Origin: Dysgonamonadaceae bacterium
GTDB taxonomy: Bacteria > Bacteroidota > Bacteroidia > Bacteroidales > Azobacteroidaceae
Length of the DNA: 34,809 bases
Assembly: GCA_031275735.1 (NCBI GenBank)
Contig: JAISOJ010000030.1
Coordinates: 1 to 34,809, forward strand
Direction of reading: 5' to 3'
Positions 2,114-22,281 of this stretch are shown piece after piece (positions within the stretch are counted from its first letter, which is position 1; every line of letters starts with the position of its first letter). The notes beneath the pieces were generated by a model, which was not told where the DNA came from, did no database searches, and was given only the letters and a program-made list of their open reading frames with translations. The translations under genes were made by a program, and so were the position numbers.

Positions 2114-4126
2114 TTACCGTTTCACTGCTTTCAGCGGAATATTTACAAAGAAGTATCCAATAACGGCTACTACGATCAAACCGATGATGTATTGCGGCTG
2201 TTGGATGGATAACAAATCCGAGAAGAAAATATTAAACATAGCAAAAACGGCCACGACTAATCCCATCAATGCTTCGCCGGCAATCATACCCGAAGCGAGT
2301 AAAACGCCGGTATTCTCAACCGTTGCCAATTGTCCTTCGTTGTATTTCCTACGGGCTACGTACAAATCTAAAATGCCTTTAATCAATCCGCCGGCAAAAA
2401 TGGCGAATACGGTGCTGAATGGCAAATACATTCCTACAAATATCAACATCGGGCTTTTGATGCCCATTAGTATGAAAGCGACTCCCAGAATCATTCCGGA
2501 AATAATCAAAGCCCAAGCCATTTGTCCGCCGACGATGCCTTGCGAAAGAGTAGCCATCAAACCGGCTTGAGGAGCGGAAAGGTTCTTGCTTCCGAACCCG
2601 CCTTCATATCCCTGCTGAATACCCATATTGATATCGCCTTGGTTCAGGATAATCAATACGCCGAACATCACGAAACCGGAGATAATCACGCCGATAATAT
2701 CACCGACCTGCATCCGCCAAGGCGTACCGCCGAGAATATGCCCGGCTTTCAAATCCTGAAACATTTCACCGCCGACGGCAGCAGCTACGCATACAATCGC
2801 CGCAATACCCAATACGGCAGCTACGCCTCCAGCGCCTTTTATGCCGCAAGCGACCAAAATCAATGCGGTAACAACCAAAGCCGTCAACGTCAATCCACTG
2901 ATCGGATTGTTGCTCGAACCAATGATACCCACTAAATAGCCGGAAACAGCAGCGAAGAAAAAAGCCAACACAATCATAATGGTCGACGCTACGATAGCCA
3001 CCAAAACAGATGTATGGAATATGAAATAGGTAATAATGAATGTCAATACTGCGGCAATGCAAATACCGATTAATATCCAGGACGACTTCAAATCTTTCTC
3101 GGTACGTTCCACGCTTTCTCCGGAACCTTGAGCAGCTCGTTTCAGGTCTTTTACCGAACGTTTCAGACCGACGCCCAGACTACTACGCATCCGGTACAGA
3201 GTGAAACATGCGGCAACGAGCATACCGCCGATAGCAATAATCCGGACAATTTCCCGCCAAACAATATTAGCGGCATTCTCCCATGCAACCAGCGAATTAG
3301 CGTCTAATCCTTGATTTACCTGAAGCGATTCGACGAAAGAACCACCCAATACGGCAAGCAACATCGGTACCATCAAGCCCCAAGCCATCACCGAACCGCT
3401 AAAGTTCAAAGCCGACAAGCGCGGACCAATGATGTATCCCACGCCCAAGTAGGCCGGACTGATGGAAGGCCCTCCGGCTAAAAATCCACCTTGCAAAGTT
3501 TTTCCACTGGCTAAAGTAGCAGAAGTGGATTTGAAAAAAGAAGTCCATTCGGTGGCAAAAAGACGAAGGTCGCCGGCAATTTTCACCAACGCGCCGACAA
3601 TCATTGCCGAGAAAAGATACTTGGACCCGCCTGCGCCGCTTTGTCCCGTTTTATGGATTTCGGCTGCCGCCACGCTTTCGGGAAAAGGGAGTTCCTTGTC
3701 TTCCACCATTACGCGGCGAAGCAAGGCCACAAAAAGTACGCCTAACGTTCCGCCTGTTATTAAGATTAATGAAGCGGTCAGGTAACTGCTTAACGAACTG
3801 AACGCCTCCCCGCTCCATACGCCGGAGATATAGAATGCCGGCAAAGTAAAGATGGCGCCTGCGGCTACCGACTCTCCAATCGAACCGACAGTACGGGTGA
3901 AATTTTCTTCCAAGATGCTTCCTTTAAAAAAGCGTAGGACCGCCATCCCAATTACTGCCGCGGGATAAGTGGCGGCAATCGTCATCCCTGCTTTTAACCC
4001 AAGGTAAGCATTAGCGGCGCCTAATACGACCGCTAAAACCAAACCGATGAGCAAAGCTCTTACAGTAAATTCTTTCAAGTTTGTACCGGATGAAACGAAC
4101 GGTACAAATTTTTTATCATCTGCCAT
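2114..4126 (-). CDS. OPT family oligopeptide transporter
   Basis: A 670-residue inner-membrane protein of the oligopeptide transporter (OPT) family, which moves small peptides or metal-peptide chelates with protons. The length is typical. Hydrophobic segments run almost end to end. Family-like motifs include the early NAYLGLKAGMTIAATYPAAV stretch (about residues 39-58) and a later GGEMFQDLKAGHILGGTP segment. A soluble basic loop near residues 320-345 separates the two halves. It follows the POT gene by 60 bases with no clear promoter and is immediately followed by the PqqD-like gene, so the three form one operon. The substrate is inferred only. Confidence 0.92.
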   Translation of the reverse strand: MADDKKFVPFVSSGTNLKEFTVRALLIGLVLAVVLGAANAYLGLKAGMTIAATYPAAVIGMAVLRFFKGSILEENFTRTVGSIGESVAAGAIFTLPAFYISGVWSGEAFSSLSSYLTASLILITGGTLGVLFVALLRRVMVEDKELPFPESVAAAEIHKTGQSGAGGSKYLFSAMIVGALVKIAGDLRLFATEWTSFFKSTSATLASGKTLQGGFLAGGPSISPAYLGVGYIIGPRLSALNFSGSVMAWGLMVPMLLAVLGGSFVESLQVNQGLDANSLVAWENAANIVWREIVRIIAIGGMLVAACFTLYRMRSSLGVGLKRSVKDLKRAAQGSGESVERTEKDLKSSWILIGICIAAVLTFIITYFIFHTSVLVAIVASTIMIVLAFFFAAVSGYLVGIIGSSNNPISGLTLTALVVTALILVACGIKGAGGVAAVLGIAAIVCVAAAVGGEMFQDLKAGHILGGTPWRMQVGDIIGVIISGFVMFGVLIILNQGDINMGIQQGYEGGFGSKNLSAPQAGLMATLSQGIVGGQMAWALIISGMILGVAFILMGIKSPMLIFVGMYLPFSTVFAIFAGGLIKGILDLYVARRKYNEGQLATVENTGVLLASGMIAGEALMGLVVAVFAMFNIFFSDLLSIQQPQYIIGLIVVAVIGYFFVNIPLKAVKR

Positions 4127-4186: not shown

Positions 4187-6181
4187 TTATTTCGTCGCTT
4201 TTTCCAACCTTTTCATAATCGAAAAAATGAACAAAGCAGAAAGAAGACAACAGATCACGAGTACTCCCCAGAAAACGGCAAGCGGCAATTTATCCCAAAA
4301 AGCGCCCATGATACCGACCAGAAGATTTCCGATCGCCGTAGAAGCGAACCAGCCTCCTTGCATCAAACCTTTGTATTGTGGCGGCGCTACTTTAGCGACA
4401 AATGAAATACCCATCGGACTCAAAAACAATTCAGCTAAAGTGAGTATCAGATAGGTACCGATAAGCCAGTTGGGTGAAACCAAGGTATCCGAAACGCCGT
4501 TGATATCCGCCGGAGCCACTTGTCCGATAGAAACCGCCAAAAGCACAACAAACCCAATGGCAGCCATCAACATACCGTACCCGATTTTGCGGGGAGCAGA
4601 AGGCTCTTTCCCCTTATTGGCAAGGAAAGTGAACAATCCAACAGACAAAGGTGTAAGCAAAATGATAAACAGTGGATTAAACTGCTGAAAAATCTGCGGA
4701 GTAATCGTGATAATGTCCTGCGATTCAATGGCGCTTTTAACATCAATCAGATAATCGGCTGCCAATCCTGCTATTCCGAGTATAATCAGGGTAATACCAG
4801 GTTTGACTTTGCGATTTCCACCGAAAAGCCCAATGGTGGACAAATAGATACCATATATAAATACAATAAAAGGTATAATCGCCAACAAGGAGAACATCAT
4901 GTTGTGAAGCGGCGAGATTTGGCTTTGCGTATAATCCCGCGCAAAGAAAGTCATACAAAGCCCGTTTTGATGGAACGACATCCAAAAGAATATAACCACA
5001 AAAAAGACAAGAAAGAGGGCAATCATTCGCTCTTTCACTTCTGCTGGAGAAAGAATAACCAATTCTTCATTTTTCTTTCCGCTTTTTTCCGCATCTTTCA
5101 GTTGCTGTTTATGCGTTCGGTCGACCGCTTTCCATGTTTTTTTGAAGATCAGGAATATCAATACCGAAATCAACATACTGATGCACGCAATAGCAAACGC
5201 CAAATTGTATGATTTTCCTAATGCGTTGGTAACATAGTATTTTCCAAAATTAACGGGAAATGCCCGAAGGTCGTCACTGTCGCCGAAAATAGCAGGATCG
5301 ATAACGGTAATCTGTTCAACTCTGTTTCTTACGGCAGCTTGGGCGTCTTTATCTTTGGGATTTCTGCTGTCGAGCAGCAGATATTCTTCCCGCGTAATTT
5401 GCATGGACGATTCGGTTAATTTTCCAGCGATGGTAAGTTGATTCAATCCGGCTGCTTTCAGTTTGAAAAGAATTTCTTTTTCATCGTTAGGGAAAATAAC
5501 TCCGTATTCTTTTTTCTCTTCTTTGATGATTTTTATACTGTCTTCCGCTGTTTTTACGTCTTTATGTTTGGCAAAAATTTCTGCGTAAAATGTTTTTTCA
5601 TCAACTACTTTATCGTTCAGAGCCACGTAATTTTTGGCGATAGACGCATCGTAGATAAAATTATCTTTTGCCAGGAAAGCATTGTTAATGCTGTTTGCCA
5701 CACTTGGAGCAAAGAATGCGCCGATATTGATAAACATATAAAATATGGAAAAAGCAATATCGCGTTTCCCTTTATATTCGTTGGATTCATAGAGATTGCC
5801 GACAAGTACTTGTAAATTGCCTTTAAAGAATCCTGTGCCTAAAGAAATTAATAGAAGGGCGGCAAACATCATGATTTGACCGAAAGTATTCGCCTCGCTT
5901 GGCACCGCAAGCAGCAAATAACCGGCAAACATCACGCTGATACCTAACAAAATTGTTTTTCCATAACCCATCACTTTATCGGCGATAACCCCGCCCAATA
6001 AGGGTAAAAAATAAACTAAACCCAAGAAAAGTCCGTAAATAAGACTGGTTGCCGAGGATGAAAATCCAAATTTAGCTTGCATATACAAGGTTAAAATAGC
6101 TAACATGGTATAATAACCAAAGCGCTCGCCCATATTTGTTAACGCAAGCACTATTAACCCTTTAGGATGATTTTTGAACAT
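4187..6181 (-). CDS. POT/PTR2 family proton-dependent peptide transporter
   Basis: A major-facilitator peptide symporter for di- and tripeptides in the inner membrane. Family marks are the MGERFGYYTM motif in helix 1 (residues 17-26), GGVIADKVMGYGKTI (63-77) and LAELFLSPMGISFVAKVAP near the C-terminus. Two points are unusual. The first Glu of the canonical ExxER proton-coupling motif is Asn16 here (NMGER). A soluble segment of about 150 residues (about 172-322) interrupts the helices, making it 664 residues against about 450-500 for simple bacterial POT proteins. It is first in the POT-OPT-PqqD operon, with a promoter at 6220-6250. Confidence 0.93.
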   Translation of the reverse strand: MFKNHPKGLIVLALTNMGERFGYYTMLAILTLYMQAKFGFSSSATSLIYGLFLGLVYFLPLLGGVIADKVMGYGKTILLGISVMFAGYLLLAVPSEANTFGQIMMFAALLLISLGTGFFKGNLQVLVGNLYESNEYKGKRDIAFSIFYMFINIGAFFAPSVANSINNAFLAKDNFIYDASIAKNYVALNDKVVDEKTFYAEIFAKHKDVKTAEDSIKIIKEEKKEYGVIFPNDEKEILFKLKAAGLNQLTIAGKLTESSMQITREEYLLLDSRNPKDKDAQAAVRNRVEQITVIDPAIFGDSDDLRAFPVNFGKYYVTNALGKSYNLAFAIACISMLISVLIFLIFKKTWKAVDRTHKQQLKDAEKSGKKNEELVILSPAEVKERMIALFLVFFVVIFFWMSFHQNGLCMTFFARDYTQSQISPLHNMMFSLLAIIPFIVFIYGIYLSTIGLFGGNRKVKPGITLIILGIAGLAADYLIDVKSAIESQDIITITPQIFQQFNPLFIILLTPLSVGLFTFLANKGKEPSAPRKIGYGMLMAAIGFVVLLAVSIGQVAPADINGVSDTLVSPNWLIGTYLILTLAELFLSPMGISFVAKVAPPQYKGLMQGGWFASTAIGNLLVGIMGAFWDKLPLAVFWGVLVICCLLSALFIFSIMKRLEKATK

Positions 6182-6264: not shown

Positions 6265-7659
6265 CTACCTCACATCGTACCTCTCGAACCGGATGATGGC
6301 CAGCACGAACATCACGCCCATGTAAGCAAGCATCACCATGAGATATTTGAGCGTTTCGGCCAGCCGCTCCGCAATGCTCGCCGGATGCTCCGCGTACTGC
6401 GGTATTTCCTCGTAGGCAACCGGCTTCCGAGTCGTCGAATAATCTTCGTAGGGATTGTACCAGTGAGGACTTTTGTCGTCTTTGGCGTCAACATCCTTGA
6501 ACCATTGCAGGTACTGTATTTTGAAGTTCTGCAAGTCGGTGTAGTTGCCTTTCAGACGGAGGTAACCGCCGTCGAGCAGCGCTTCCGTGCCGTATTCGAA
6601 CACGGCGAGGGGCGAAATCCACGCCCAGCGACGGGTGTTTTTCACCTGACGGAACTGGGCGGCATAGTGTTCGTCCCAGAACTGGGCCTCGTTTTTGCCG
6701 AACGCCATCTGCATGTTTGCCCTGATTTCGTGCTGGGGAAGAAACGGGTTACTACCGTTTGACATCCATTTACCATCGGGGAACGTGGCTTCTATCTCCT
6801 TGCGTTTTTCCCAAATTTTGAACATTACCATGTTCCCTCTTTCCACCGGCCAGGCGATCGTACCGAGCGTCTGCGAAAAGTTGGGGATAGCGATCAGGAA
6901 TACCAACCACAGCGATACCGACACGAGCAGGCTGATGTTGGAGTTGGCGCACATCACCGAGGCAAGCAACCCTACGGCGCTCATGCTGCCGGTGAAGAAG
7001 ACGACGAAAAGCAGGAACAGCCCGATTTCGGAAAACGTCTCGCCCGTGATGTTCACCGCAGGCGAGAGCATCAGGATAAGCAACGCAAGCAGGATCCCCG
7101 CCAGAGCGCAAGCTATGAGCAATATGTTGATGGCGATGAATTTCCCGAGTAGAATGCGGCTTCGCTTCACCGGATTGGACAGACTGAGCGCCAGTGTGCG
7201 CCCTTCTTTCTCGCCCGACACGGCATCGAACGAAAAGATGATGGCAAGAAAGCTGAACAGCACCGTCAGGATAAAGCCCCAGCTGATGCGCTCCGACGGC
7301 ATCACCAGTGGGTTGTCGCTGCTGACATTACCGGAAAACCGTAGCCAGTGGAAAGCGGTATATTCAAGTGTATTGGGCATGTTCGGCTCGCCGCAATCGG
7401 AAATGAAACCGTTGTTGCGCGGCGGCAACCGGTATTCCCGTCGATGGATGACTACGTTTGTTGCACTAAGGCCCGCCCTGTCGCGCAGCTGCTGTTCCTG
7501 ACCGGCGACAATCTCGCGGTAGCTTTTGACCGCTTGATCGTATTCGCCGATGTACGTCAGCGACGAAATGGCAAACATTACCAGCACAATACTCAGTGTG
7601 ATGGGCAGGCGCAGCTCATAAAGGAACTGCTGTAACTCGTGAAGAATTAAATTTTTCAT
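6265..7659 (-). CDS. ABC-2 type permease (DUF3526-like), second of a pair
   Basis: A 464-residue membrane subunit of an ABC transporter. One N-terminal helix (about 17-35) is followed by about 90 extracytoplasmic residues, a cluster of helices (about 128-262) including the FSFDAVSGEKEGRTLALSLSNPVKRSRILLGK stretch seen in ABC-2/NosY-like permeases, a second large soluble region (about 265-435) and a final helix. It ends in RFERYDVR, almost the same as the RYDVR-like end (FIKYDVR) of its neighbour, so the two are paralogues. It is last in the exporter operon, 74 bases after the other permease. The pair probably forms a heterodimer with the ATPase at 9325. Substrate unknown. Confidence 0.88.
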   Translation of the reverse strand: MKNLILHELQQFLYELRLPITLSIVLVMFAISSLTYIGEYDQAVKSYREIVAGQEQQLRDRAGLSATNVVIHRREYRLPPRNNGFISDCGEPNMPNTLEYTAFHWLRFSGNVSSDNPLVMPSERISWGFILTVLFSFLAIIFSFDAVSGEKEGRTLALSLSNPVKRSRILLGKFIAINILLIACALAGILLALLILMLSPAVNITGETFSEIGLFLLFVVFFTGSMSAVGLLASVMCANSNISLLVSVSLWLVFLIAIPNFSQTLGTIAWPVERGNMVMFKIWEKRKEIEATFPDGKWMSNGSNPFLPQHEIRANMQMAFGKNEAQFWDEHYAAQFRQVKNTRRWAWISPLAVFEYGTEALLDGGYLRLKGNYTDLQNFKIQYLQWFKDVDAKDDKSPHWYNPYEDYSTTRKPVAYEEIPQYAEHPASIAERLAETLKYLMVMLAYMGVMFVLAIIRFERYDVR

Positions 7660-7733
7660 ACGTTTATATTTTTATTTGCCACTAATGTATTAATTTGTAT
7701 TTGTCTTTGGATTAGTGTATTAGTGGTTTAAGT

Positions 7734-9287
7734 TTACCTGACGTCGTATTTGATGAACGACATGAACGAGAGCCAAAACAGGAGAATACACATAATCAGT
7801 ATCCCTGCGATGAGGTACAGTTGTTCGAACAAATCGTCTCCCAGCGTAGGTTGTACGTAAGCAAAACGGGGAAACGACTGCGTATCCTGATAAGCTATCG
7901 AGTTGAAATCAAATGTGGAAGTCGCTTTGGCTTCTTCTCTCCATCTGGCTGCTTGCTCATTTGATTCGTCCCAGTCGTTGGGAAATTCGGATTCCTTCTG
8001 CGGGGTGAAGTATGCGTAGGACGAGAAAATTTTGTTTTGCACAAAGTATCCGTAAAACATATCCTGAAACTGCCTGGCTTGATCCATGAAATGCACCTCG
8101 CTGTCTGTACCCGTGCGGCAGAGTGATGTGGCAATCAGCTTGAGTATGCCGGCAGGCGAAAGGCACGAGAGGTAGCGTACGGTTTTCTCTTGACGATAGA
8201 TCTGTTGCAGGTAATCGGACTGAATCGCCCACTTTTTATTGCAGTTGGCCAGCAGGATGGGGTTGGCCAGCTCCTTTTTGCGTCGTTCGTATTCCATGCT
8301 TTCCCTTGGCGTAAACATCGTTGCATGTGCACCGTCCCAGTCCATATCCCAGCAATAGGCCCAACCGAACAAATTCAGGTTTTCATTTTTCAGAATCTCT
8401 TCCACTTCCTTCGCTTGCACGTCCCACCACTGCTTGTCGATTTGATCGGTGTAGAAGTCTACCTGCCTGTAATCGTCTGTGGGCGAAATGTTTTTGCCGA
8501 ACCAAGCGGCGGTATTGGGCAGTAGGAACAACAAGATGCACCAGATAAACAGGTTCAGGATGATGCTTGCCGTCGAACTTTTGGTCCGGCTGGAAATGAA
8601 TCCACCCAAGAAGACGAAAAACCCGAAGTATATCAGACTTAGCAGCAACAGCGCTCCGATACGTCCGTAGTCGCCAGACGAAAACTGCACCGAGGGCGAA
8701 AGCTGTATAATCAGCAGTATCACCAGAAAACAGATGACCAAAATCGGCGTCAGCGTAAGGAATATCCCTGCAATCTTGCCGAGAAAAAATGTCGAACGGC
8801 TCACCGGATGACTGAGCGCCAGCTTGAGCGTTCCCTGTTCCTTTTCGCGCGAAAGCATATCGTACGAAAACAGTATGCCCAGCAGTGAGAGCAGTATGGC
8901 AATTGCCATGGCGAAATCCATCGACATGAACTTGCTCATAAGCGGGTTTTCGTTCAGCGAAACAATGTCTGTCGAAAACACCGGTTTTTCTTTGCGGTCG
9001 AGCTTCACCTTCGAACCGGTTTGTTCGGTAATGCCCTTGCTAAAGATGCTTAGCGACGAAACCGGTTTTACCAGTATCGGATTCACCTGCGCATAAGTGT
9101 GCGCCTTCATATATATATCCTCTGCCGTTTTTATGTCCACCTCGTACTGCGCAAGGCGGTTCGTGTGCGTCCGGATACCCGTGTAAACGGTATAGGGTAT
9201 CAGCGCCAGGCACAACAGTAAACCGACGATAAAACCGGGCGTTACGATGTTGTTCCGAAATTCTTTTTTAGCTATAAACCAAACCAT
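7734..9287 (-). CDS. ABC-2 type permease (DUF3526-like), first of a pair
   Basis: A 517-residue paralogue of the neighbouring permease with the same plan: N-terminal helix (about 17-36), an extracytoplasmic region (to about 125), a helix block (about 128-265) with FSYDMLSREKEQGTLKLALSHPVSRSTFFLGK, a large soluble region (about 270-480) and a C-terminal helix. The conserved amphipathic stretch after helix 2 is probably where the ATPase couples, as in ABC-2 permeases generally. It starts 37 bases after the ATPase stop. The large soluble domains suggest contact with the periplasmic partner at 10167 rather than only a small-molecule pore; that is inference. Confidence 0.88.
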   Translation of the reverse strand: MVWFIAKKEFRNNIVTPGFIVGLLLCLALIPYTVYTGIRTHTNRLAQYEVDIKTAEDIYMKAHTYAQVNPILVKPVSSLSIFSKGITEQTGSKVKLDRKEKPVFSTDIVSLNENPLMSKFMSMDFAMAIAILLSLLGILFSYDMLSREKEQGTLKLALSHPVSRSTFFLGKIAGIFLTLTPILVICFLVILLIIQLSPSVQFSSGDYGRIGALLLLSLIYFGFFVFLGGFISSRTKSSTASIILNLFIWCILLFLLPNTAAWFGKNISPTDDYRQVDFYTDQIDKQWWDVQAKEVEEILKNENLNLFGWAYCWDMDWDGAHATMFTPRESMEYERRKKELANPILLANCNKKWAIQSDYLQQIYRQEKTVRYLSCLSPAGILKLIATSLCRTGTDSEVHFMDQARQFQDMFYGYFVQNKIFSSYAYFTPQKESEFPNDWDESNEQAARWREEAKATSTFDFNSIAYQDTQSFPRFAYVQPTLGDDLFEQLYLIAGILIMCILLFWLSFMSFIKYDVR

Positions 9288-9324
9288 AGTTTAATTATGA
9301 GTTATGAGTTATGAGTTTTTCCGT

Positions 9325-10059
9325 TTATTTCACTGTTTCGGCATACATGACAGATTCCTGCATGTAATCGAGGTAGATGCGCTCGAGATCGTCTTGGAGG
9401 AACTGTTCGCGTGTACGCAACATCACCAGGCGGCCTTCTTTCATGATTCCTACGCGGTCGGCAGCGGTTTTGGCGCGAAAAATGTCGTGTGTACACATCA
9501 GGATGGATTTTCCCTGATCGCGCAGTTTCATCAGCAGTTGCATCAGTTCGGCTGCCGATTTGGGGTCAAGGCCCGAAGTAGGCTCGTCGAGCAGGATGTT
9601 GGAAGTGTCCTTTATCATGGCAATGGCCAATCCTACTTTTTGCCGCATCCCTTTTGAGAAGGTTTTCAACTTTTTCTCGAAAGCGTCGTCTTGAAGTCCC
9701 ACGTTACGCATGGCGTCGTAATAGTTTTGCTTGGTGAGGTGGTTTTTACCTCCCAGCTTGGCAAAGAAGTCGAGATTCTGCCTTGCAGTAAAGTTTCCGT
9801 ACAGCATTACGTTTTCGGAAACATAGGAAACGTAGCGTTTGGTTTCCAACGGGTTTTTCATTACATCGACGCCGTCGATCAGGGCTTGACCCGAAGTAGG
9901 TTCGATAAAATTCAAAAACAGGTTGATGGTGGTGGTTTTACCTGCGCCGTTGGCACCCAGAAGGAAAAAGATTTCTCCCTGCGTGATTTCGAGGTTAAGG
10001 GCGTCCAATGCCAATTGTCCGTCTTCGTAGCGTTTCGTTAAATTAATTGCTTGTAACAT
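9325..10059 (-). CDS. ABC transporter ATP-binding protein
   Basis: The 244-residue nucleotide-binding subunit that powers the two permeases. All motifs are present: Walker A GANGAGKT (35-42), a signature FSKGMRQ (134-140; the non-LSGGQ form usual in ABC-2 exporters), Walker B ILLDEP (155-160) followed by TSGLDP, and the switch His191 in CTHD. It lies between the periplasmic protein and the permeases, which matches an exporter operon. The nearest general types are drug, gliding (GldA-like) and NosF-like ATPases; the sequence does not decide the cargo. Confidence 0.95.
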   Translation of the reverse strand: MLQAINLTKRYEDGQLALDALNLEITQGEIFFLLGANGAGKTTTINLFLNFIEPTSGQALIDGVDVMKNPLETKRYVSYVSENVMLYGNFTARQNLDFFAKLGGKNHLTKQNYYDAMRNVGLQDDAFEKKLKTFSKGMRQKVGLAIAMIKDTSNILLDEPTSGLDPKSAAELMQLLMKLRDQGKSILMCTHDIFRAKTAADRVGIMKEGRLVMLRTREQFLQDDLERIYLDYMQESVMYAETVK

Positions 10060-10122
10060 ATATTCTAAAAATTTAGTTGTTAATTATTCCTGTTTTTATT
10101 TGTGAATGACGCGAATTTTGTA

Positions 10123-10148
10123 GTAGAACAAGGCATGACTTGCCCTAC
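10123..10148. repeat. REP-like imperfect palindrome
   Basis: A 26-base imperfect palindrome starting GTAG and ending CTAC, with inner CAAG/CTTG and central CATG, in the 107-base gap between the periplasmic protein gene and the ATPase gene. It looks like the short palindromic repeats (REP/MITE type) scattered in many genomes. As a hairpin it could tune read-through or mRNA stability within the operon. Only one copy was noticed. Confidence 0.5.
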
Positions 10149-10166
10149 ATGCTACGTACTTTCCAT

Positions 10167-11690
10167 TTACCTGCGGCTAAGTTTGATTCCAAACCAGACT
10201 AATCCTCCGATTACTCCGACGAGCAGCAGGAGCAACAGCACCGTGCCGAATACCGATGTTTTAGCGTTCATTTGTATGCGGATCGTTTTGTCTTCGGTAT
10301 CTACCTTGCGGTTGTCGGCCAGGGCTTCGGTTTTGATTTTTACTTCTTGTGCGCCTACGCCGCTGTCTTGGGGGGGCCGGATGGTGACTTGTACGGAGAT
10401 TTCTTTTTCAGGATCGAGCGTACGGATCAGGTCGGGCGTGATGATGGCTATCCAGTTGATTGGACTGTCGGCGCTGATTTTGATGTTGTCGAGGCGTCGT
10501 GTACCGGCGTTACGAACGGTGAGATTCATCGTCACACTGTCGCCCGTCGATATTTCGTGATAGAGGTTGGTGGCCCGGACTTCGATTTTTCCCTTTCCGC
10601 GCGGCACAAGCTCCAGCAGTTCTCTGCCGCACGAAAGGGCTGCGAGTTGTTCGGACGTGAAGGTGGAGAGGTCTTTTCCGGCGATTTGATTGTATTGTTC
10701 GCCGGTGAACGTGAAGACGTGGAATTTTAGCGGTTGGTCGATGCGTATCCGTTCGTCGTCGCGATCGGGCAGGTACACGCGCAGGGACAGTTTTTTTGTG
10801 TTTACTCCTTGTGCAAATTTGATTTGCGATATTTTACTGTTGCTTTCATCCAAAAACTCGCAGGTGATTTGCTGCGGTAGCCCTGCGACCATTAGCCGGT
10901 AAACGTCGTCGGAAGTAGAGAAGCGTTCGAGGGTTAGTGCATAGGTGGCGCTCGAACTGAGGTCGGCTTCCTGCGAAAACTGCATCGAACTGATGTCAAT
11001 CACGTTGATACTTGCATCCTGTTTCAGGTAAACATTTTTTTCGCTTGTCCGACCGTTGTAGTTGAGCGAGACGCTCAGGTTTTCGGCATCCTTGAGGAGT
11101 TCGAAGTCAGCGGAAGCCTCCTGCCCGATTTCGATAGAAGGAATCTGGTATTCGTAAGGCGACCCGATGATGGTGTGATCGGCGATGTCTGCGAGCGAAA
11201 CGAAGATGTTATAGACTTTTCCGGCTCGCATTTCGGGTGTAAAGACGTCGAAATGTTCCTTAAACTGGTTCAGGTATTCTTCATTGCCTTCGAGGGTGCT
11301 CTTGAGGGTGATTTTGACACGACGTTCTCCGCCGACAGTCTGGTACTTTACTGCCCGTTCGATAATCACATAGGATTGTTGCGAAATCAGTTGCAGGATC
11401 AATTTCTGATAATCGACTTCGCGGCTCAGCAGGGCGTTTTTCGATTTGGTGTAGTCGTTTGCCGAGATCGCTTTTTCGTCGTAGAGCCGCGTATCATTTT
11501 CAAATTGCTGGCGGGCTACTTCGTAGTCGGCGCGCGCCTTTTTCAGGTCAAGCAGGATGGCCGCCTTGTTTGTTCCTTCGTTTTGTCCCTGAACCGCAAA
11601 GCATACGGCCAGTATCAGGGAGAAGATAATCGTGTTTCGTTGTATGAAACGTTTTAAGGCAGAATCTGCCGGGTGCAAAAAATGTATCAT
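10167..11690 (-). CDS. Membrane-anchored periplasmic protein with adaptor-like hairpin and NEW3-type domain
   Basis: A 507-residue protein between tolC and the ABC ATPase. Visible in order: a basic N-terminus and signal or anchor segment (about 14-36); a charged helical hairpin (about 45-104) with LYDEKAISANDY at its turn, very like the helical hairpin of HlyD/MacA/AcrA adaptors, including L69 and S76 at the spacing of the adaptor RLS motif (Arg is at 68 rather than 65); several beta-rich regions; a NEW3-like Ig-type domain (about 370-455, with RNAGTRRLDNIKISADSP); and a C-terminal membrane helix (about 481-503) with a basic tail. No lipoyl/barrel-sandwich domain is apparent. I infer an unusual adaptor linking the inner-membrane ABC complex to TolC. 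The NEW3 call is fair; the adaptor role is a hypothesis. Confidence 0.75.
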   Translation of the reverse strand: MIHFLHPADSALKRFIQRNTIIFSLILAVCFAVQGQNEGTNKAAILLDLKKARADYEVARQQFENDTRLYDEKAISANDYTKSKNALLSREVDYQKLILQLISQQSYVIIERAVKYQTVGGERRVKITLKSTLEGNEEYLNQFKEHFDVFTPEMRAGKVYNIFVSLADIADHTIIGSPYEYQIPSIEIGQEASADFELLKDAENLSVSLNYNGRTSEKNVYLKQDASINVIDISSMQFSQEADLSSSATYALTLERFSTSDDVYRLMVAGLPQQITCEFLDESNSKISQIKFAQGVNTKKLSLRVYLPDRDDERIRIDQPLKFHVFTFTGEQYNQIAGKDLSTFTSEQLAALSCGRELLELVPRGKGKIEVRATNLYHEISTGDSVTMNLTVRNAGTRRLDNIKISADSPINWIAIITPDLIRTLDPEKEISVQVTIRPPQDSGVGAQEVKIKTEALADNRKVDTEDKTIRIQMNAKTSVFGTVLLLLLLVGVIGGLVWFGIKLSRR

Positions 11691-11725
11691 TTTTTATTTA
11701 TTGATTTTAATTGATTGTATCCAAT

Positions 11726-13237
11726 TCATTTTTCTTCATTAATCCTGTAGCTTCTGTTGTTTTCGAAGTCCCACATGGTGCGTCGTTTCAAATCGGCCAG
11801 TGCAAGACGGTAAGTGATGTACGCGTCGATGAAGGCGAGCTGCACCTGCGAGAGCCGTTCCTGTTCCGTAGCCAATTCCTGACCGGAGAGGTCGCCATTT
11901 TCGAAGCGCAGGCGTGAGATGCGGTAGCTGTTTGTGGCGTTGTCCTTGTTTTTCTGGTTGATACGGAAGCGCTTTTCGGCTTCGTGTACTGTGCGGACAA
12001 TTTCGCGGATTTCCTTTACGATCAGGTTGTTTGTGTTTTCGAGTTTCAGTTGTTTTTCCTTCAGCCGGATGGTTTGACTTTTGACGATGTTGCGTCCGCG
12101 CCCCCAGTCGAGTATCGGTACGGTGAGTGTGAAGGTGATGCCGCGGTTGGGTGGACGCATCGCGAAGTTGTCGAACGACGAGCGGAAAAGTTCCTGTGCA
12201 TTGCCGGGTTGCGTACTAAGTCCCGTAAAATCGTAGTAGGCATAAATATTCCCCTTAATTTCGCGTTCCCGTTTGGCGCGGTCGATTTCTATTTGTTGCA
12301 GTTTGACGTCGTATTCTTCTTCTTTCACTTCCAAGCGATTGGCCAAGGCTTGTTCGATAGCGGTCGGCAGGTCTATCACTACGGGTTCAAAGTCCATTTC
12401 GGCAATGATGTCAATTTCCTCGTTCATGTCTATTCCGATTAGCAGTTTGAACTCATCTTTTTGGAGTTCGTATTCTCCAGCGCTTTCCGAGAGGTTGACA
12501 TCGCTTTGCAGGGCGTTGATTTCCGTCACCAGCAGGTCTCCTTCGGGGATGTTTCCGGTTTCGAACTTGAGTTTGGCAATGCGCAACGCTTCCTGTGCAT
12601 TGCGTAGCTGTTCTTCGTCGATTTGTTTTTTGTAAGCGGCCTTATAGACTTCGTAAAAACCTCGGGTGACGTTGTAAACAATGTCCATCTGCGTTCGGGT
12701 AAAAAACAGTTCCGCACGCTCGTACTGGTACTGGGCAACTTTCAGGTTTTCGCGCAACTTGTTTTTGGTGAACACGGGCTGGTCGAAAATTAATCCGAAT
12801 TGGCTGAATGCCTGTTTCCGCTTGAGGGTAGAATAATCCTGGGCGAAAGTAGTGCGGAGGTTTTCGTGATAGAGGTTGCCCGTCAAGGCGAGGTTTCCAC
12901 CGGTGGGCAGGACGTAGGTGAATTTCAGGTTTCCACCGAATTGTATGGAGCTTGTCGAGTTATAGACCGGCAGGTCGTCGGTTTGTTCGATGGCCGATAC
13001 CTGTTCGTTCCACGAGGGGGTAAAAAGGTTCAGATCCAATCTCGGCTTGAACTGCGCCTTGTAATAGAGGTATTCGTACTGCATGGCTTGGCGGTCTTCG
13101 TCGTTCAACTGCACTGTGTAGCTCTCGTGCAGCGCGATGTTAACCGCCTGTTCGATAGTGAGGGTCGTTTTTTGCTGTGCATGTAGCGGTTGTAACCATA
13201 TCAGTCCTAAAATGGGTAAAATAAGATCTATTTTCAT
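11726..13237 (-). CDS. TolC family outer-membrane efflux protein
   Basis: A 503-residue outer-membrane channel of the TolC/OEP type, a trimer that exports substrates across the outer membrane and periplasm. It has a signal peptide (residues 1-20, ending HA) and then LTIEQAVNIALHES, the usual start of the first OEP repeat. Two similar halves follow with long alternating helices; the phrases FYEVYKAAYKKQIDEEQLRNAQEALRIAKLKFETGNI and RISRLRFENGDLSGQELATEQERLSQVQLAFIDAYITYRLALADL are typical periplasmic barrel helices. It is first in the exporter operon, directly downstream of a sigma-54 promoter, with the periplasmic partner gene 35 bases after it. Confidence 0.95.
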   Translation of the reverse strand: MKIDLILPILGLIWLQPLHAQQKTTLTIEQAVNIALHESYTVQLNDEDRQAMQYEYLYYKAQFKPRLDLNLFTPSWNEQVSAIEQTDDLPVYNSTSSIQFGGNLKFTYVLPTGGNLALTGNLYHENLRTTFAQDYSTLKRKQAFSQFGLIFDQPVFTKNKLRENLKVAQYQYERAELFFTRTQMDIVYNVTRGFYEVYKAAYKKQIDEEQLRNAQEALRIAKLKFETGNIPEGDLLVTEINALQSDVNLSESAGEYELQKDEFKLLIGIDMNEEIDIIAEMDFEPVVIDLPTAIEQALANRLEVKEEEYDVKLQQIEIDRAKREREIKGNIYAYYDFTGLSTQPGNAQELFRSSFDNFAMRPPNRGITFTLTVPILDWGRGRNIVKSQTIRLKEKQLKLENTNNLIVKEIREIVRTVHEAEKRFRINQKNKDNATNSYRISRLRFENGDLSGQELATEQERLSQVQLAFIDAYITYRLALADLKRRTMWDFENNRSYRINEEK

Positions 13238-13266: not shown

Positions 13267-13282
13267 GGCAAAAAATATGCCA
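13267..13282 (-). promoter_or_regulatory. Sigma-54 (-24/-12) promoter of the exporter operon
   Basis: On the minus strand the 16-mer TGGCATATTTTTTGCC keeps the invariant GG and GC with exactly 10 bases between them (consensus TGGCACGNNNNTTGCW). It lies 30 bases upstream of the tolC start, leaving room for a short leader. The gene directly upstream encodes a sigma-54 activator, so the match is supported by context. No TANNTTTG box was seen at a better place. Confidence 0.82.
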
Positions 13283-13403: not shown

Positions 13404-14774
13404 TCAGCGGTCTATACCATACTTCTTCATCTTATTAAAGAGCGTTTTCCTGCTGATATTCAATGCTTCGGAGGTTATCTTACGATTGTAATTATAACGT
13501 TTCAGGGTTTCTTCTATCAAGTTTTTCTCTGCCGCCGAGTTGATTTTATTGATGAGATTCGGTTCACTATCATCCAATAATTTCATTTCGGTGGACAGGG
13601 GATAAGTTTTGATTCGCATCGGCAACCGATCCACATCAATGACGTTGCCCTGCGATAGAATCATAGCGCTTTGTACGGCGTTTTCCAGATCGCGGATATT
13701 TCCCGGCCACTCATATTGTGTTAGCCTGTTGATTGCTTGTTGAGTAATACCGGTAACATTCAGATCCAGTATCTTGTTGTATTTTAATATAAAATGGTCG
13801 ATCAATCGCGGAATATCGTCGCGACGTTCACGCAAAGGAGGGACTTGTATGGTAAATACATTCAGGCGATAAAACAAATCCAAACGAAAAGTACCCTCTC
13901 CAACTTTTTCTTCCAAATTACAGTTGGTGGCAGCAATGATACGCACATCCACTGCGATGGATTTTTTGCCGCCCAAGCGGGCAATCGTCTTGTTTTCCAG
14001 CGCTCGCAACAATTTTACCTGTGCTTCTAACGGTAATTCGCCTATTTCGTCGAGGAAAAGCGTTCCGCCGTCGGCTTGTTCAAATGGTCCCCTGCGCATC
14101 TCCCGCGCATCGGTGAAAGCGCCTTTTTCGTGCCCAAACAATTCGCTTTCGACAAGCGGCAATGGTATCGCTCCGCAATTGACTGTTATGAATTGCTTGT
14201 TCGAGCGCGAACTGAAATTGTGTACGGAACGTGCAATCAATTCTTTACCTACCCCGCTTTCGCCCAGTATCAGCACAGTGGCTGAGGTAGCGGCAACTTT
14301 ATGTACCTGAGCCATTACCTGCTGCAATTGAGCGCTACTACCTATAATTTGTCCGAATGAATACGTTTCATTAAAGCATTCTTTCAGTCGGTTCAATTCG
14401 CCCGACATCCTTCTGTATTCGAGAGAGCGGCGTATAGTAAGCAACAGTTTATCGTTGTCGAACGGTTTTTCTATAAAATCGTATGCACCGTTCTTAATTG
14501 CATCCACCGCAAGAGAAATAGATCCGTGCGCAGTAACAATGATAACCACCGTTTCGGGATACTTGTCCTTTATTTGCTTGAGCGCTTCTACCCCCATCAT
14601 ATCCGGCATTCGCTGGTCCAACAGCGTTACATCCGGATGAAAACGTTCTACTTCCTCGACAGCTGATAATCCATTATCCACCGTCAATACTTCGTACCCT
14701 TCGTTCCGTAGTAAAAGGGCCATTATCTTCCTGATTTTAGCTTCATCATCCGCTATTAAAATGCGTACTTTCAT
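13404..14774 (-). CDS. Sigma-54-dependent NtrC-family response regulator
   Basis: A 456-residue activator with the standard three parts: receiver (1-120; acidic pocket D9/D10, phosphoacceptor D53, T80, K102), AAA+ domain (about 138-370) with Walker A GESGVGKE (170-177), GAFTDA loop (217-222; the sigma-54 contact, Asp replacing the second Gly of GAFTGA) and Walker B GTLFLDEIGE (236-245), and a Fis-type HTH at the C-terminus (KITSEALNISRKTLFNKMKKYGI). It would contact sigma-54 RNA polymerase in the cytoplasm after phosphorylation by the overlapping kinase gene. The next gene downstream, tolC, has a sigma-54 promoter and tandem palindromes, so this is probably its local activator. Confidence 0.96.
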   Translation of the reverse strand: MKVRILIADDEAKIRKIMALLLRNEGYEVLTVDNGLSAVEEVERFHPDVTLLDQRMPDMMGVEALKQIKDKYPETVVIIVTAHGSISLAVDAIKNGAYDFIEKPFDNDKLLLTIRRSLEYRRMSGELNRLKECFNETYSFGQIIGSSAQLQQVMAQVHKVAATSATVLILGESGVGKELIARSVHNFSSRSNKQFITVNCGAIPLPLVESELFGHEKGAFTDAREMRRGPFEQADGGTLFLDEIGELPLEAQVKLLRALENKTIARLGGKKSIAVDVRIIAATNCNLEEKVGEGTFRLDLFYRLNVFTIQVPPLRERRDDIPRLIDHFILKYNKILDLNVTGITQQAINRLTQYEWPGNIRDLENAVQSAMILSQGNVIDVDRLPMRIKTYPLSTEMKLLDDSEPNLINKINSAAEKNLIEETLKRYNYNRKITSEALNISRKTLFNKMKKYGIDR

Positions 14775-16047
14775 TAATTATATTGTTTAGTTTTTTTATC
14801 GCTTGAGGTAATTTTATCACCACCGTAACGCCTTTGCCGGGCAAGCTATTCACCTCCATTTCACCGCCGTGCCGGCTGATAATACCGTACGAAATGGGTA
14901 AACCAAGTCCTGTTCCATCTTTCTTGGTGGTGTAGAAAGGGTTAAAAATATTTTCGAGGTCGGCTTGTTCAATCCCTTTACCCGAATCTATTACGGAGAT
15001 CAGCAGGTAGCGCGACTGATAATCCGACGGACGTCTGGTTTCAATACTTAGCGTCAATCGTTTTTCCTCGCTGTCTTCCATAGCTTCCACTGCGTTGAGA
15101 ATGACGTTGAGAAATACCTGTTTCAATTGCGACACATCAGCAGTAACGACAGTGTCCTTGGCGCGAACATCAAGTTCTACGCCAATTTCTTGCCGGACAA
15201 TGGTATTATTAAGTAATACGAGCGTTTGCTGTAATAATTGTACAACATCCACTCGGACGACTTCCAGTTTGGATGGTTTGGATAACGACAGCAAGCCCTG
15301 TAATATTTTGTTGATGCAATCCACCTCTTCCATTAATTCGTTGACCATTTCCAACTTGTCCGGATCTTGCATTCCTTTACCCAGATACTGTATCGTGCTA
15401 CGGATGGCGGTTAGCGGATTGCGGATTTCATGCACTGCTCCCGCCGCCAATTGTCCCAGTACGGCTAGCCGGTCGGCGCGGTACATCTTCTTGATCCGTG
15501 CGCTTTGTTCTTCATAAAGGGAGGTGTTTTCGATGGCAAAAGCCACCTGATCAAACAACAGATTCAACAGGCTAATGTCTTGTTCGGAAAAATGTTGTCC
15601 GTCGGAACGTTTACCCAGCAGAACGAAGCCGCTGAGACGGTTCATCACTTTTAACGGGAAAACCAGTTCGATACCGCCTTTGCGGATCAAATCCCTTTCT
15701 TTGTCCGAAAGATAAGTCATTATACTCTCCGAACGGGAGACCTGAAAGCATGTCTCATTGATAGACAACCAGTGCGCCAATTTGCTGTGGATCGTAAAAT
15801 GTATATTTTGAAAGATATTATCGTTTTGTTTTTTCCCGACATAGGTGTATTTTTCCGTTTCGGAATCTAACAAAAAAATACCAATCCGTTCAATAAGAGA
15901 AACTTGTACAATTTTCGAAATAATATTGGTTATCAGCAAATCTTTGTCGACAATCAACATCAACGACCGATTAAATTCGGCAAGGAATATACGCAAAAAT
16001 TCCTGTTCGATCAATGATTTATATTGTTTCTTTTTAATTAAATTCAT
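14746..16047 (-). CDS. Cytoplasmic GAF-domain sensor histidine kinase
   Basis: A 433-residue kinase with no membrane segment. A GAF-like sensory domain covers about 20-175, a short coiled linker follows, then HisKA with His206 in GAVHEIRNPLTA, and the ATPase domain with N-box NVILNAVEAM (around N318), G1 DSGKGI (354-359), F-box FNPFYTTK (368-375) and G2 GTGLGL (378-383). It overlaps the regulator gene by 29 bases, a tight pair. The lack of membrane helices suggests an internal signal (ligand, redox or envelope stress relayed by another factor). The signal cannot be read from the sequence. Confidence 0.95.
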   Translation of the reverse strand: MNLIKKKQYKSLIEQEFLRIFLAEFNRSLMLIVDKDLLITNIISKIVQVSLIERIGIFLLDSETEKYTYVGKKQNDNIFQNIHFTIHSKLAHWLSINETCFQVSRSESIMTYLSDKERDLIRKGGIELVFPLKVMNRLSGFVLLGKRSDGQHFSEQDISLLNLLFDQVAFAIENTSLYEEQSARIKKMYRADRLAVLGQLAAGAVHEIRNPLTAIRSTIQYLGKGMQDPDKLEMVNELMEEVDCINKILQGLLSLSKPSKLEVVRVDVVQLLQQTLVLLNNTIVRQEIGVELDVRAKDTVVTADVSQLKQVFLNVILNAVEAMEDSEEKRLTLSIETRRPSDYQSRYLLISVIDSGKGIEQADLENIFNPFYTTKKDGTGLGLPISYGIISRHGGEMEVNSLPGKGVTVVIKLPQAIKKLNNIINESTHFNSG

Positions 16048-19589: not shown

Positions 19590-20915
19590 TCAGAATATCA
19601 TACTGAAAACCGTCGTTTTTTCTATAGAGAAAGAATGTTGCAATTTGCCTCCATGCAAACGCATGATATATCGGGAAACGCTAAGTCCGATACCGGAACC
19701 CGAAGATTTGGTCGTGAAAAAAGGAACAAAAATATTGGGTAAGATATCTTCCGGAATAGGTTTGCCTGTGTTGGCGATATTAACGCTTAGTTTATCCGGA
19801 GCTGATTGGTTGACCGAAAACATAATTTTTTCTCCCTTGTTGGCCTCAATGGCTTCGATGGCGTTTTTCAGCAGATTAATTAATACTTGAGTAATCAGGT
19901 TTTCATCAGCATGGATAATAACCGGTTCAAGAAGAGAAACAATTAATTCGATATTTTTCTTCCTGATAGCCGCTTCATGCAATTTGATGACTTTATCAAT
20001 CGCAGTGTTCAAGTTAAAATCCTGCTTTTTCGGCTTAGGAATTGCAGTGAATTTACGATACGATTCAACGAAAGATAACAAGCCCGAAGCTGTGGAGTTG
20101 ATAGTTTTGAAAGCTCCGAGCGTGTTTCGTTTTAAATCTTCCGAATAAATAGGAGCATTTTGATGCAGGAAAAGCATGGTTTCGCTCAAAGAAGTAATGG
20201 GAGCAATGGAATTCATAATCTCGTGAGTCATCACGCGGATAAGTCGAATCCACGATTCCATTTCTTTCATTTCCAGTTCGTCGCCTATATTATTCAAAGT
20301 AATGATTCGCATCAATCCCCGTTTAAGACAGATTTGTGAAACATACAGACTGATTTGCAATTCTTCCCGTTCGTTCGTTAATGTAATTTGGACGTTATCG
20401 CCGCTTCTCAGTTGATGAAACAGTTTAGGATAAGTTTCATTAATAACTTGTAACTGATTGATATGCGAAAGCACAGGAAGTCCCAACATATTTAATGTCG
20501 GTTGATTTATTCGCTGAACAATGCCTTTGTCGTCGATGATGATAATACCCGTTGAAACGCTTTCGAGAATCAGACTTAGGAACTTTTCATTTTCAATTAC
20601 TTCCTTGCGGGCATTTACCAGGATTTCTTTGATACGGTTCATCACTTTGTTCATTTCTTTTTCCTGTGTCGAAAGTTTGGTTTCTGAAAAATGAAAAGTG
20701 TAATCGCCGTTTTCTAAGGCGTTAAGCAGAAAATGAAAATTTTGGTTATACGATTGGTAGCCTTTTTTTAATCCGAAAAAACAAAAGAAAATCACTCCTA
20801 TACCCAAAATAGCATACAAGTAGTTAGCAGTAAAGAAGAAAAAAGTAGTTACAGCGACTGCCAAAACCAGTAGTGCCGTATAAGCATAAAGTCTGTATTG
20901 AATGGATCTGAACAC
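19590..20915 (-). CDS. Membrane sensor histidine kinase with PAS domain (NtrY/AtoS-like)
   Basis: A 441-residue inner-membrane kinase: two helices with almost no loop (about 10-49), a HAMP-like linker (about 62-100), a PAS domain (about 110-210), HisKA with His231 in MTHEIMNSIAP, and an ATPase domain with N-box LLKNAIEAI, ANTGKPI in place of a classic DxGxG, FVPFFTTK and GSGIGLSVSRYI. The tiny periplasmic loop suggests membrane or cytoplasmic sensing. It is the last gene of the group regulator, peroxidase fusion, kinase, and probably phosphorylates the regulator at 22336. It starts 145 bases after the peroxidase fusion stop. Confidence 0.94.
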   Translation of the reverse strand: MFRSIQYRLYAYTALLVLAVAVTTFFFFTANYLYAILGIGVIFFCFFGLKKGYQSYNQNFHFLLNALENGDYTFHFSETKLSTQEKEMNKVMNRIKEILVNARKEVIENEKFLSLILESVSTGIIIIDDKGIVQRINQPTLNMLGLPVLSHINQLQVINETYPKLFHQLRSGDNVQITLTNEREELQISLYVSQICLKRGLMRIITLNNIGDELEMKEMESWIRLIRVMTHEIMNSIAPITSLSETMLFLHQNAPIYSEDLKRNTLGAFKTINSTASGLLSFVESYRKFTAIPKPKKQDFNLNTAIDKVIKLHEAAIRKKNIELIVSLLEPVIIHADENLITQVLINLLKNAIEAIEANKGEKIMFSVNQSAPDKLSVNIANTGKPIPEDILPNIFVPFFTTKSSGSGIGLSVSRYIMRLHGGKLQHSFSIEKTTVFSMIF

Positions 20916-21060
20916 GTGTTTATGAAGTATGAAGTATTATGCTTGGTATAATTTTGTGTGTATCAGTAGGAGAAAAGGAAAAGGGAAATCACAATGTGTT
21001 CTTTACAAGTAACAAAATGATGCGCGTTTCCTTCCTCCTGTTTCCTGTACAATTTAACTC

Positions 21061-22281
21061 TTAGTTTCCTATGATCCATTTGATGATTTCCTCCGACTGG
21101 GGAGATTCTTTAGGTTCGATGGATTTTACCCACCGACCATTCTCGTCGATTAGGAATTTCTGGAAATTCCAGGTGACTTCGGCGTCAGCCACGCCGTTAG
21201 CTTCCTTTGTTGTTAACCAGCGGTAAAGCGGAGCGATATCGTCGCCTTTCACGGAAATTTTCGCCATCATCGGGAAGGTAACGCCGTAATTAGATGTACA
21301 AAACGCTTTGATCTCCTCATTAGCGCCTGGTTCTTGCGCTCCGAAATTGTTTGCCGGAAAACCGACAATCACAAAATTATTATCTTTGTATTGCTCATAA
21401 AGTTCTTGTAATTGAGCGTATTGGGGAGTTAATCCACATTTGGACGCCACATTGACAATCATTATTTTTTTTCCTTTTAAATTGAATAATGGAAAGTCGT
21501 CGCCGTCAATAGTTTTTACTGTAAAACTATAAATTGTTGATTTTGAACGATTTTCTATTAGAAAGGTCATCATCATGCGATGCACGTCTTCCGGATTATC
21601 AAAGCGGATATTCTCTTTTTTTACAAAATCCTTGAGTTCTTTTTTACAACATCCGATGGCTTTAGCCAAAGAGGAAGCCGAATCGAAACGTCTGAATTTA
21701 CCGTCCTTTTTCATGTAGTAAGTGCTTTTGAGAAAGGCAACCATCCCTTCGTTATAGGTATAACGAGGAGCCGAAGTCGTTCCGGTTTCCGAAGTTTTGT
21801 AAGAAGTTGTGCTATAACTTTGCGCATAATGTCCAAGACCAACTTTTTTACCTACGGAAACCCATTTAGGTTCCCATTCAACATAATAAGCGCCTTCTCC
21901 TACGGGAACACGTTCTAAAATTCCATTTTTAGGGGTAAACTCAAAAACCCTACCCGCAATAATAACCTGACTTACATTTCCAGGCTCTGCAAAAGTCATA
22001 ATGACGCTATCTTCTATGTATTGAATTTGTCGGGTAACAATAGAATAATTGAACTGTCCGTTCATTTTAATCCCGTTTTTTAATATAGCAGTTCCGTTTT
22101 CATATTGAGGAAATAATAAATCGGAAGGAGAAGGGCGTTGGGCCTTTGATGTTCCCATACACAGCAGGATCGACAAATAAAATAGAAGCTTTTTTGTACA
22201 AAAAAAAGAGGAAGAGTGGAGGATAGCAAACGAGGGGTTAGTCACATTCTCTTGACTGTTGTTTGTAAATGTCTGTCTCAT
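21061..22281 (-). CDS. Secreted two-domain protein ending in glutathione peroxidase
   Basis: A 406-residue fusion. After a long N-terminal region with a signal peptide (about 30-48, ending KAQ), residues about 50-245 form a beta-rich domain like secreted Bacteroidetes proteins of unknown function (an ILKNG, RVFEF and EGAYYVE pattern; a CC pair at 211-212). Residues about 248-406 are a glutathione peroxidase: peroxidatic Cys282 in SKCGLTPQY, Gln316 in FGAQEPG, Trp371/Asn372 in WNFQKFL, the full catalytic tetrad. These enzymes reduce peroxides, usually with thioredoxin in bacteria. Export would place it in the envelope. It sits between a sigma-54 regulator and its likely kinase. The long N-terminus makes the start uncertain. 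Confidence 0.88.
   Translation of the reverse strand: MRQTFTNNSQENVTNPSFAILHSSSFFCTKKLLFYLSILLCMGTSKAQRPSPSDLLFPQYENGTAILKNGIKMNGQFNYSIVTRQIQYIEDSVIMTFAEPGNVSQVIIAGRVFEFTPKNGILERVPVGEGAYYVEWEPKWVSVGKKVGLGHYAQSYSTTSYKTSETGTTSAPRYTYNEGMVAFLKSTYYMKKDGKFRRFDSASSLAKAIGCCKKELKDFVKKENIRFDNPEDVHRMMMTFLIENRSKSTIYSFTVKTIDGDDFPLFNLKGKKIMIVNVASKCGLTPQYAQLQELYEQYKDNNFVIVGFPANNFGAQEPGANEEIKAFCTSNYGVTFPMMAKISVKGDDIAPLYRWLTTKEANGVADAEVTWNFQKFLIDENGRWVKSIEPKESPQSEEIIKWIIGN

Follow-up and report, generated by a model that had tools for sequence, protein, structure and literature searches.

On a 34,809-nucleotide contig of a Dysgonamonadaceae bacterium (JAISOJ010000030.1 of assembly GCA_031275735.1, hereafter the window), five genes encode an outer-membrane efflux protein of the OEP/TolC type, a 507-residue protein with a NEW3 domain, an ATP-binding cassette (ABC) ATPase and two ABC-2 permeases. 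The 507-residue protein is probably a periplasmic adaptor, devoid of a lipoyl domain and anchored at its C-terminus, of an ABC exporter with NosY-like permeases. This proposal builds on the gene order and its conservation, a predicted fold with a helical hairpin and Ig-like domains, the adaptor-type sequence of that hairpin and the core of the permeases, all of which were computed.

The operon and its hairpin/NEW3 protein

The five genes, all on the minus strand and numbered on the whole window, are as follows.

11726-13237, minus strand: OEP/TolC, outer-membrane efflux protein, transcribed first (Pfam OEP, 2.4e-37)
10167-11690, minus strand: 507-residue hairpin/NEW3 protein, the proposed lipoyl-less periplasmic adaptor (AlphaFold2, NEW3 domain, hairpin profile matches)
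9325-10059, minus strand: ABC ATPase (Pfam ABC_tran, 1e-27)
7734-9287, minus strand: ABC-2 permease A, having a NosY-like core and a presumably periplasmic helical insert (Pfam ABC2_membrane_2, DUF3526)
6265-7659, minus strand: ABC-2 permease B (Pfam ABC2_membrane_2, 2e-37)

The original prediction had described TolC, a periplasmic protein, an ABC ATPase and two permeases in one operon, with no HlyD/MacA-type adaptor gene and with large soluble regions in the permeases. Gene calls and Pfam bore out this content, and neither Pfam nor a scan with an adaptor profile found a HlyD/MacA-type adaptor gene among the five. In the order listed, the genes are separated by 35, 107, 37 and 74 nt. Hydropathy agreed with the soluble regions: in each permease the first membrane segment is followed by two non-hydrophobic stretches, about 89 and 233 residues long in permease A and about 90 and 181 in permease B. 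Superposition on NosY recovered the six-helix ABC-2 core that marks NosY-like permeases. An OEP gene, an ABC ATPase gene and permease genes, encoded together and conserved, were found here as in a tripartite ABC exporter.

The window's 507-residue protein was modelled as a single chain with AlphaFold2 (mean predicted local distance difference test score, pLDDT, 91.3), and helices were assigned by DSSP. Its main parts are listed below.

11376-11582, minus strand: two-helix hairpin, residues 37-105, with helices 37-71 and 77-105 (AlphaFold2; adaptor profile match)
11463-11498, minus strand: hairpin tip, residues 65-76, site of R-x3-L-x6-S, here N-L-S (alignment columns)
10266-10592, minus strand: NEW3 Ig-like domain, residues 367-475
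10173-10253, minus strand: C-terminal membrane helix, residues 480-506 (DSSP on the model; hydropathy)

A helical hairpin had been predicted at residues ~45-104, and the model passed this structural check. Between the hairpin and the membrane helix lie Ig-like beta-domains, the last of which is NEW3; Pfam NPCBM_assoc/NEW3 (PF10633) matched residues 381-453 (1.6e-12, 47.9 bits for a curated cut-off of 24.4). With a NEW3 match above the cut-off and a C-terminal membrane helix, the protein has both marks of a NEW3-domain membrane protein, as had been anticipated. A hydrophobic N-terminal helix, residues 8-35, was taken as a putative cleaved signal peptide.

An evident lipoyl domain had been reported missing, and on this point Pfam, the model and profile comparison agree. 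No strand stands ahead of the hairpin in the model, the HlyD, biotin-lipoyl and RND-MFP Pfam families did not match the protein at E≤1, and residues 104-476, aligned by hhalign with adaptors of the same genome, reached a probability of 0.5%. An adaptor-type beta-barrel or membrane-proximal domain gave no sequence match either; the fold lists show Ig-like domains, with unlisted families still possible, and neither a lipoyl nor an adaptor-barrel fold was among the fold matches listed. A hidden adaptor barrel at residues ~163-246, where several rows weakly match adaptor positions ~206-283 (per-domain E 0.7 to >100), was dropped, profile-profile comparison giving only 1.3%. A SHOCT-type short helical hairpin, suggested by the turn sequence, did not appear among the Pfam matches at E≤1, five families in all. 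A single-sequence search of the PDB with the whole protein returned no relative at E≤1. Two weak NCBIfam adaptor matches, far under cut-off, were confined to the hairpin (TIGR00999, 1.6e-4, residues 40-98; RND_mfp, 0.0031, residues 47-95). We did not file the protein in the adaptor family, because the split lipoyl domain, a defining feature of that family, was looked for and not found. As to its mode of working, family membership apart, the evidence favours an adaptor.

Adaptor character of the hairpin

Likeness to adaptors was measured with a profile of 12 adaptors from the window's own genome, and searches with the hairpin used a profile of 44 hairpins. By hhalign, the hairpin aligned with the same-genome adaptors over 49 columns, with a probability of 96.4% (E 1.3e-9) and a score of 59.3. 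All 100 shuffles scored lower, the 50 heptad-block shuffles reaching at most 47.4 (median 22.0) and the 50 column shuffles 17.4. Because the real score tops every shuffle of either kind, the likeness goes beyond chance; a profile search against the HlyD and RND-MFP families had been suggested as a check, and it came out in favour of the prediction. Control alignments with kinases, permeases, PDZ proteins, regulators and ATPases each stayed below 1%. On sequence grounds, the hairpin is the sole adaptor-like part of the protein.

A search of the PDB with the 44-hairpin profile gave 26 matches at E≤10. Classed by molecule names, 17 were efflux adaptors, the best four included (4l8j, named 'putative efflux transporter', was counted as an adaptor by interpretation). 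The best matches were 4l8j (5.4e-5), 2k32 (0.0011) and MexJ (0.0018); 6vej, ZneB, AcrA, MacA, EmrA and MexC-like chains followed at E >0.03. The nine other matches were SmpB, splicing-factor, flagellin and antibody chains. In the window's own genome the same profile had nine non-self matches, of which eight fell on RND_mfp family matches and the ninth on an OEP gene. A hairpin-only adaptor match in C34 of this genome was set aside, as inspection of the sequence identified a HlyD-like gene next to one for a peptidase-type ABC transporter. In the reverse direction, the adaptor profile was run on 993 open reading frames (ORFs) from 81 sources; the 58 hits at E≤0.01 comprised 4 strong adaptors and 54 members of the NEW3-hairpin family, and the members with ranges printed matched at the hairpin.

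In known adaptors the motif RxxxLxxxxxxS at the hairpin tip forms the TolC interface, and its mutations alter binding or function, the serine being partly tolerant (passages of PMC3391258); the motif is not absolute across known adaptors (passages of PMC4446572). Of 74 aligned rows, 65 have the R at the turn of our hairpin, 68 the L and 58 the S; the columns in between vary more, except two hydrophobic columns ahead of the serine. The earlier claim of a tip close to the TolC-docking tip of adaptors stands for the position of the motif at the turn and for its conservation in the family; the window itself has N-L-S and not R-L-S at the three TolC-contact positions. Though of this variant form, the hairpin is of the alpha-helical kind with a TolC-contact tip motif that adaptors carry. 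An N-L-S tip beside its own TolC would be a natural variant for testing how strictly the arginine is needed.

The original idea of a new kind of adaptor in a tripartite exporter is thus supported by the hairpin profile, tip conservation and gene order. The operon would encode a trans-envelope ABC exporter, with the ATPase and two NosY-like permeases at the inner membrane and the OEP/TolC protein as the outer-membrane duct. The C-terminal helix would hold the adaptor in the inner membrane, with the Ig-like domains rising from it and NEW3 closest to the membrane and the permeases. The free N-terminal hairpin would dock by its tip onto TolC at its periplasmic end; movement of the permeases, with their large periplasmic domains, would be driven by ATP hydrolysis, and the substrate would be handed to TolC. 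The adaptor role itself, docking on TolC, oligomeric state and stoichiometry, the direction of transport and the handing over of a substrate are what we infer.

With periplasmic adaptors of the HlyD, RND-MFP, MacA and EmrA kinds, the protein shares an alpha-hairpin with a tip of the R-x3-L-x6-S type, a gene position in the operon next to those for TolC and the transporter, and anchoring in the inner membrane. It differs from them in having Ig-like/NEW3 domains, an anchor at the C-terminus, no recognised lipoyl or barrel domain and, in the model, no strands before the hairpin. YbhG, which works with YbhFSR of E. coli in an ABC-2 type exporter of adaptor, ATPase and two permeases, is a normal HlyD-type adaptor, unlike the 507-residue protein. 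Compared to NosDFY, the exporter described here has an insertion of ~230 residues ahead of the last membrane helix, two unlike permeases and an OEP gene in the operon, and none of its five proteins matches a NosD-type beta-helix Pfam family. Described adaptors have hairpin, lipoyl and barrel domains (passages of PMC4446572 and PMC13328181). BesA of Borrelia, of solved structure, also departs from the four-domain plan, in the reverse sense: it keeps the lipoyl, barrel and membrane-proximal domains and has no hairpin (passages of PMC3807786). If our proposal is right, the window's protein is the reverse of BesA, the hairpin alone having been transferred to another scaffold. It would separate TolC docking from the remaining adaptor functions, offer a direct test of tip-to-tip docking models, and assign a function to a widespread NEW3 and ABC-2 operon. 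Searches of the open PMC literature for a NEW3 domain with an ABC transporter and TolC, for NEW3 with an ABC transporter and a permease, and for DUF3526 with an ABC transporter and a permease returned nothing. The six papers there on COG1470, NPCBM-associated or NEW3 proteins included none on such exporters, as judged from their listing, and no title among the matches listed named such a system; NEW3 is not mentioned in the passages of PMC8277102 that were covered.

Relatives, gene order and alternative explanations

Gene order was surveyed in stretches (loci) of relatives, designated by L-numbers. Among 198 genomes of the window's order, four full-length orthologues were found, with 51-65% identity, and the 38 genomes of its genus added one at 65% (L156) and a 41-residue fragment. 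Of the 37 other genus genomes 2 matched, one by the fragment only, and many of these genomes are incomplete. The fragment (L157, G616:C28, 7874-7993), 68% identical to residues 427-467 and lying in a short open frame, is a possible gene remnant. All four order orthologues have OEP, NEW3 protein, ATPase, permease A and permease B in the window's order, with two additional permease ORFs ahead of the ATPase in L144. L156 has a regulator pair, OEP and the NEW3 gene and, up to the contig end, no recognised ATPase and a permease match on the other strand. In 9 of 9 examined members of this TolC-linked clade (window, four order members, L156, L031, L032 and L033), the OEP gene directly precedes the NEW3 gene, with a 534-nt gap and a doubtful ORF between the two in L033. 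In a tree of 81 rows, midpoint-rooted for drawing only, the eight clade members included formed one group (100/100); L073, which also bears an OEP gene, stood apart on a long branch. In the gene-order survey proposed with the prediction, this pairing of OEP and NEW3 genes is constant among the clade members examined, and outside the clade an OEP gene is rarely seen close to the NEW3 gene (next upstream in 1 of 75 survey loci). An ordinary set of OEP, HlyD and two ABC-2 permease genes is present in the window's genome (C24); its HlyD gene occupies the position of the NEW3 gene, which therefore sits at the place of an adaptor gene.

Beyond the order, 32 of 395 genomes of the phylum matched, 25 over the full length (own genome included) and 7 only by the C-terminal NEW3 and membrane part. 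The GTDB species collection yielded 97 relatives, of which the best 80 were kept, nearly all metagenome bins. By name they include Balneola, Rhodothermia, Ignavibacteria, Zixiibacteriota, KSB1, Latescibacterota, Calditrichota, Gemmatimonadota, Krumholzibacteriota, Acidobacteriota and two gammaproteobacterial bins. No monoderm species was named among the best 80 of 97, several being titled just 'bacterium'. As far as sequence matches tell, the relatives are spread over many diderm phyla.

Neighbouring genes were counted in 80 sources with a labelled NEW3 gene, the window included and L099, which has no NEW3 label, excluded. Gene calls there come from a greedy longest-ORF list, in which some labels are false ORFs over real genes, and many contigs end early, so that the counts are lower bounds. 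Five loci of the seven C-terminal-only matches (L026-L030) encode NEW3 membrane proteins of 287-389 residues with no hairpin in their sequence. They share with the window's protein the C-terminal NEW3-type part, matching from residue ~355 (Pfam NEW3 in L026, the only one tested). Since an ABC ATPase gene adjoins them in all five loci, with a permease match next in three, the hairpin looks like an added module on a NEW3 protein; the hairpin-less form is possibly ancestral. L034, L035, L037, L038, L050, L144, L031 and L032 have additional permease ORFs, as many as four in the vicinity of the NEW3 gene, which suggests repeated permease duplication.

On these data we lean, by a little, towards a second, separately assembled class of adaptor, made of an Ig/NEW3 scaffold with a C-terminal anchor and having only the hairpin in common with known adaptors. 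It would occur in many diderm phyla, serve NosY-like exporters, use a TolC from its own operon or a shared one, and mostly go with a PDZ protein.

Several results weigh against the adaptor proposal, above all that most loci of the NEW3-hairpin family show no TolC gene: an OEP gene lies within 4 kb of the NEW3 gene in at least 5 of 80 sources, 4 of them members of the TolC-linked clade. Directly upstream of the NEW3 gene, at least 48 of the 80 have a gene for a PDZ protein instead (PDZ_2 was confirmed by Pfam in both proteins tested, and these upstream proteins are secreted as judged by eye). Neither a lipoyl domain nor an adaptor-type barrel, which could make a sealed ring, was recognised. At the tip, the complete R-L-S triple occurs in just 45 of 74 rows, and it is precisely in the TolC-linked clade, window included, that N (once K) replaces the arginine. 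The hairpin also resembles OEP helices (87% against OEP proteins by hhalign), 14 of the 17 PDB adaptor matches are at E >0.03, 26 of the 80 labelled family genes miss E 0.01 with the adaptor profile, and one of the 50 heptad-block shuffles reached a probability of 93.8%. The lack of nearby TolC genes would be accounted for by a TolC shared with other pumps; OEP proteins are encoded in each of the 24 other genomes tested that have a full-length family member, compared to 7 of 14 control genomes.

The same lack would also fit a NosD-like or mechanotransmission accessory of a NosFY-type ABC machine, moving or sensing something at the inner membrane, with a hairpin making contact to the permeases, to itself or to some other periplasmic protein, and a TolC that joined in one clade only. 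We regard this as unlikely: the hairpin sequence is adaptor-like with conserved TolC-contact positions, the OEP genes of all 24 genomes make a shared TolC possible, and no monoderm species is named among the best 80 of 97 relatives, several of them titled just 'bacterium'. Alternatively, the hairpin may bind TolC while a normal adaptor encoded elsewhere completes the machine, leaving the NEW3 protein as an auxiliary fourth part. Normal adaptor genes are indeed numerous in the window's genome (24 stretches matched by RND_mfp), but two hairpin proteins would presumably compete for a single TolC tip, and the genes lie apart. Strong adaptor matches occurred in 3 of 81 sources, once in L062, once in L083 and twice in L035, never closer than 4 kb to the NEW3 gene; in L147, one of six further stretches, an adaptor gene lies 3.5 kb upstream of the operon, beyond an opposite-strand gene, and this is the nearest. 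An operon that also carries a normal adaptor gene had been named as the counter-case to the prediction, and none was seen in the stretches scanned with the adaptor profile, many contigs ending early. A fourth part of this kind is therefore improbable. Most improbable of all is that the hairpin is an ordinary oligomerisation coiled coil whose adaptor likeness reflects convergence of the heptad pattern. Two-helix hairpins are common, and a heptad-block shuffle could come as high as 94%, but only once in 50, the median being 5.8%; the real score exceeded all 100 shuffles, unrelated proteins aligned below 1%, and the motif arginine, an untypical core residue of coiled coils, is retained in 65 of 74 rows.

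Probable regulators, a possible sigma-54 box and neighbouring genes

Upstream of the OEP gene lie the following features.

13404-14774, minus strand: sigma-54-activating response regulator (Pfam Response_reg, Sigma54_activat, HTH_8)
14746-16047, minus strand: histidine kinase with a GAF domain, partner of the regulator (Pfam HATPase_c, HisKA, GAF_3)
13268-13282, minus strand: sigma-54-type -24/-12 box TGGCAT-N5-TTGC, 1 mismatch, ending 30 nt ahead of the OEP start codon

The box was called with the -24/-12 consensus. When the 350-nt upstream region was shuffled, 1 of 500 shuffles yielded a box as good; over the whole window, boxes with ≤2 mismatches were not commoner than chance (20 observed, 23.75 expected). 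Boxes with 1-2 mismatches occur near the OEP start in L143, L144, L145, L146 and L156, in L143, L145 and L146 only if the start codon is placed further inside the ORF; L032 has 4 mismatches and L033 has 3. L031 was left out of this comparison, its OEP gene being truncated where the contig stops. A regulator homologue and a kinase gene, divergent to OEP, were found in all five orthologous stretches (four order members and L156). L033 also has the pair; in L032 its place upstream of OEP is taken by a permease ORF. The response regulator is likely to control the exporter operon. In the wider survey, an opposite-strand histidine kinase gene lies within 4.5 kb in at least 43 of 80 sources, which suggests induction by an envelope signal. 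In L074 (6121-8014), the place where many loci have a two-component pair is held, ahead of the PDZ gene, by a BlaI-like regulator (by eye) and a BlaR1-type M56 peptidase (Pfam, 3.4e-25).

The GC content of the operon is 49.3%, compared to 39.2% in the remaining window; gene by gene, it is 0.48-0.54 in the five operon genes and 0.38-0.45 in the other genes measured, except an OPT gene at 0.48. Together with the sparse matches within the genus, this fits a recent acquisition without proving it. An anti-phage role was considered and rejected, PADLOC matching the ATPase only and none of the other four proteins.

Downstream of the exporter, on the minus strand, are the OPT and POT peptide-transporter genes (2114-4126 and 4187-6181, with intervals of 60 and 83 nt). 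In L143-L146, the ORFs that come after the operon are mainly on the opposite strand, with sizes differing from those of the OPT and POT genes. At 19590-23700, minus strand, a glutathione-peroxidase-domain gene has on one side the gene of another sigma-54 response regulator and on the other a gene with a histidine-kinase-type ATPase domain. Finally, type IX secretion genes together with a likely substrate lie on the plus strand at 26014-32922; they encode a 1146-residue Peptidase C25 protein, PorV, and a subtilase that ends in a secretion-system sorting tail.

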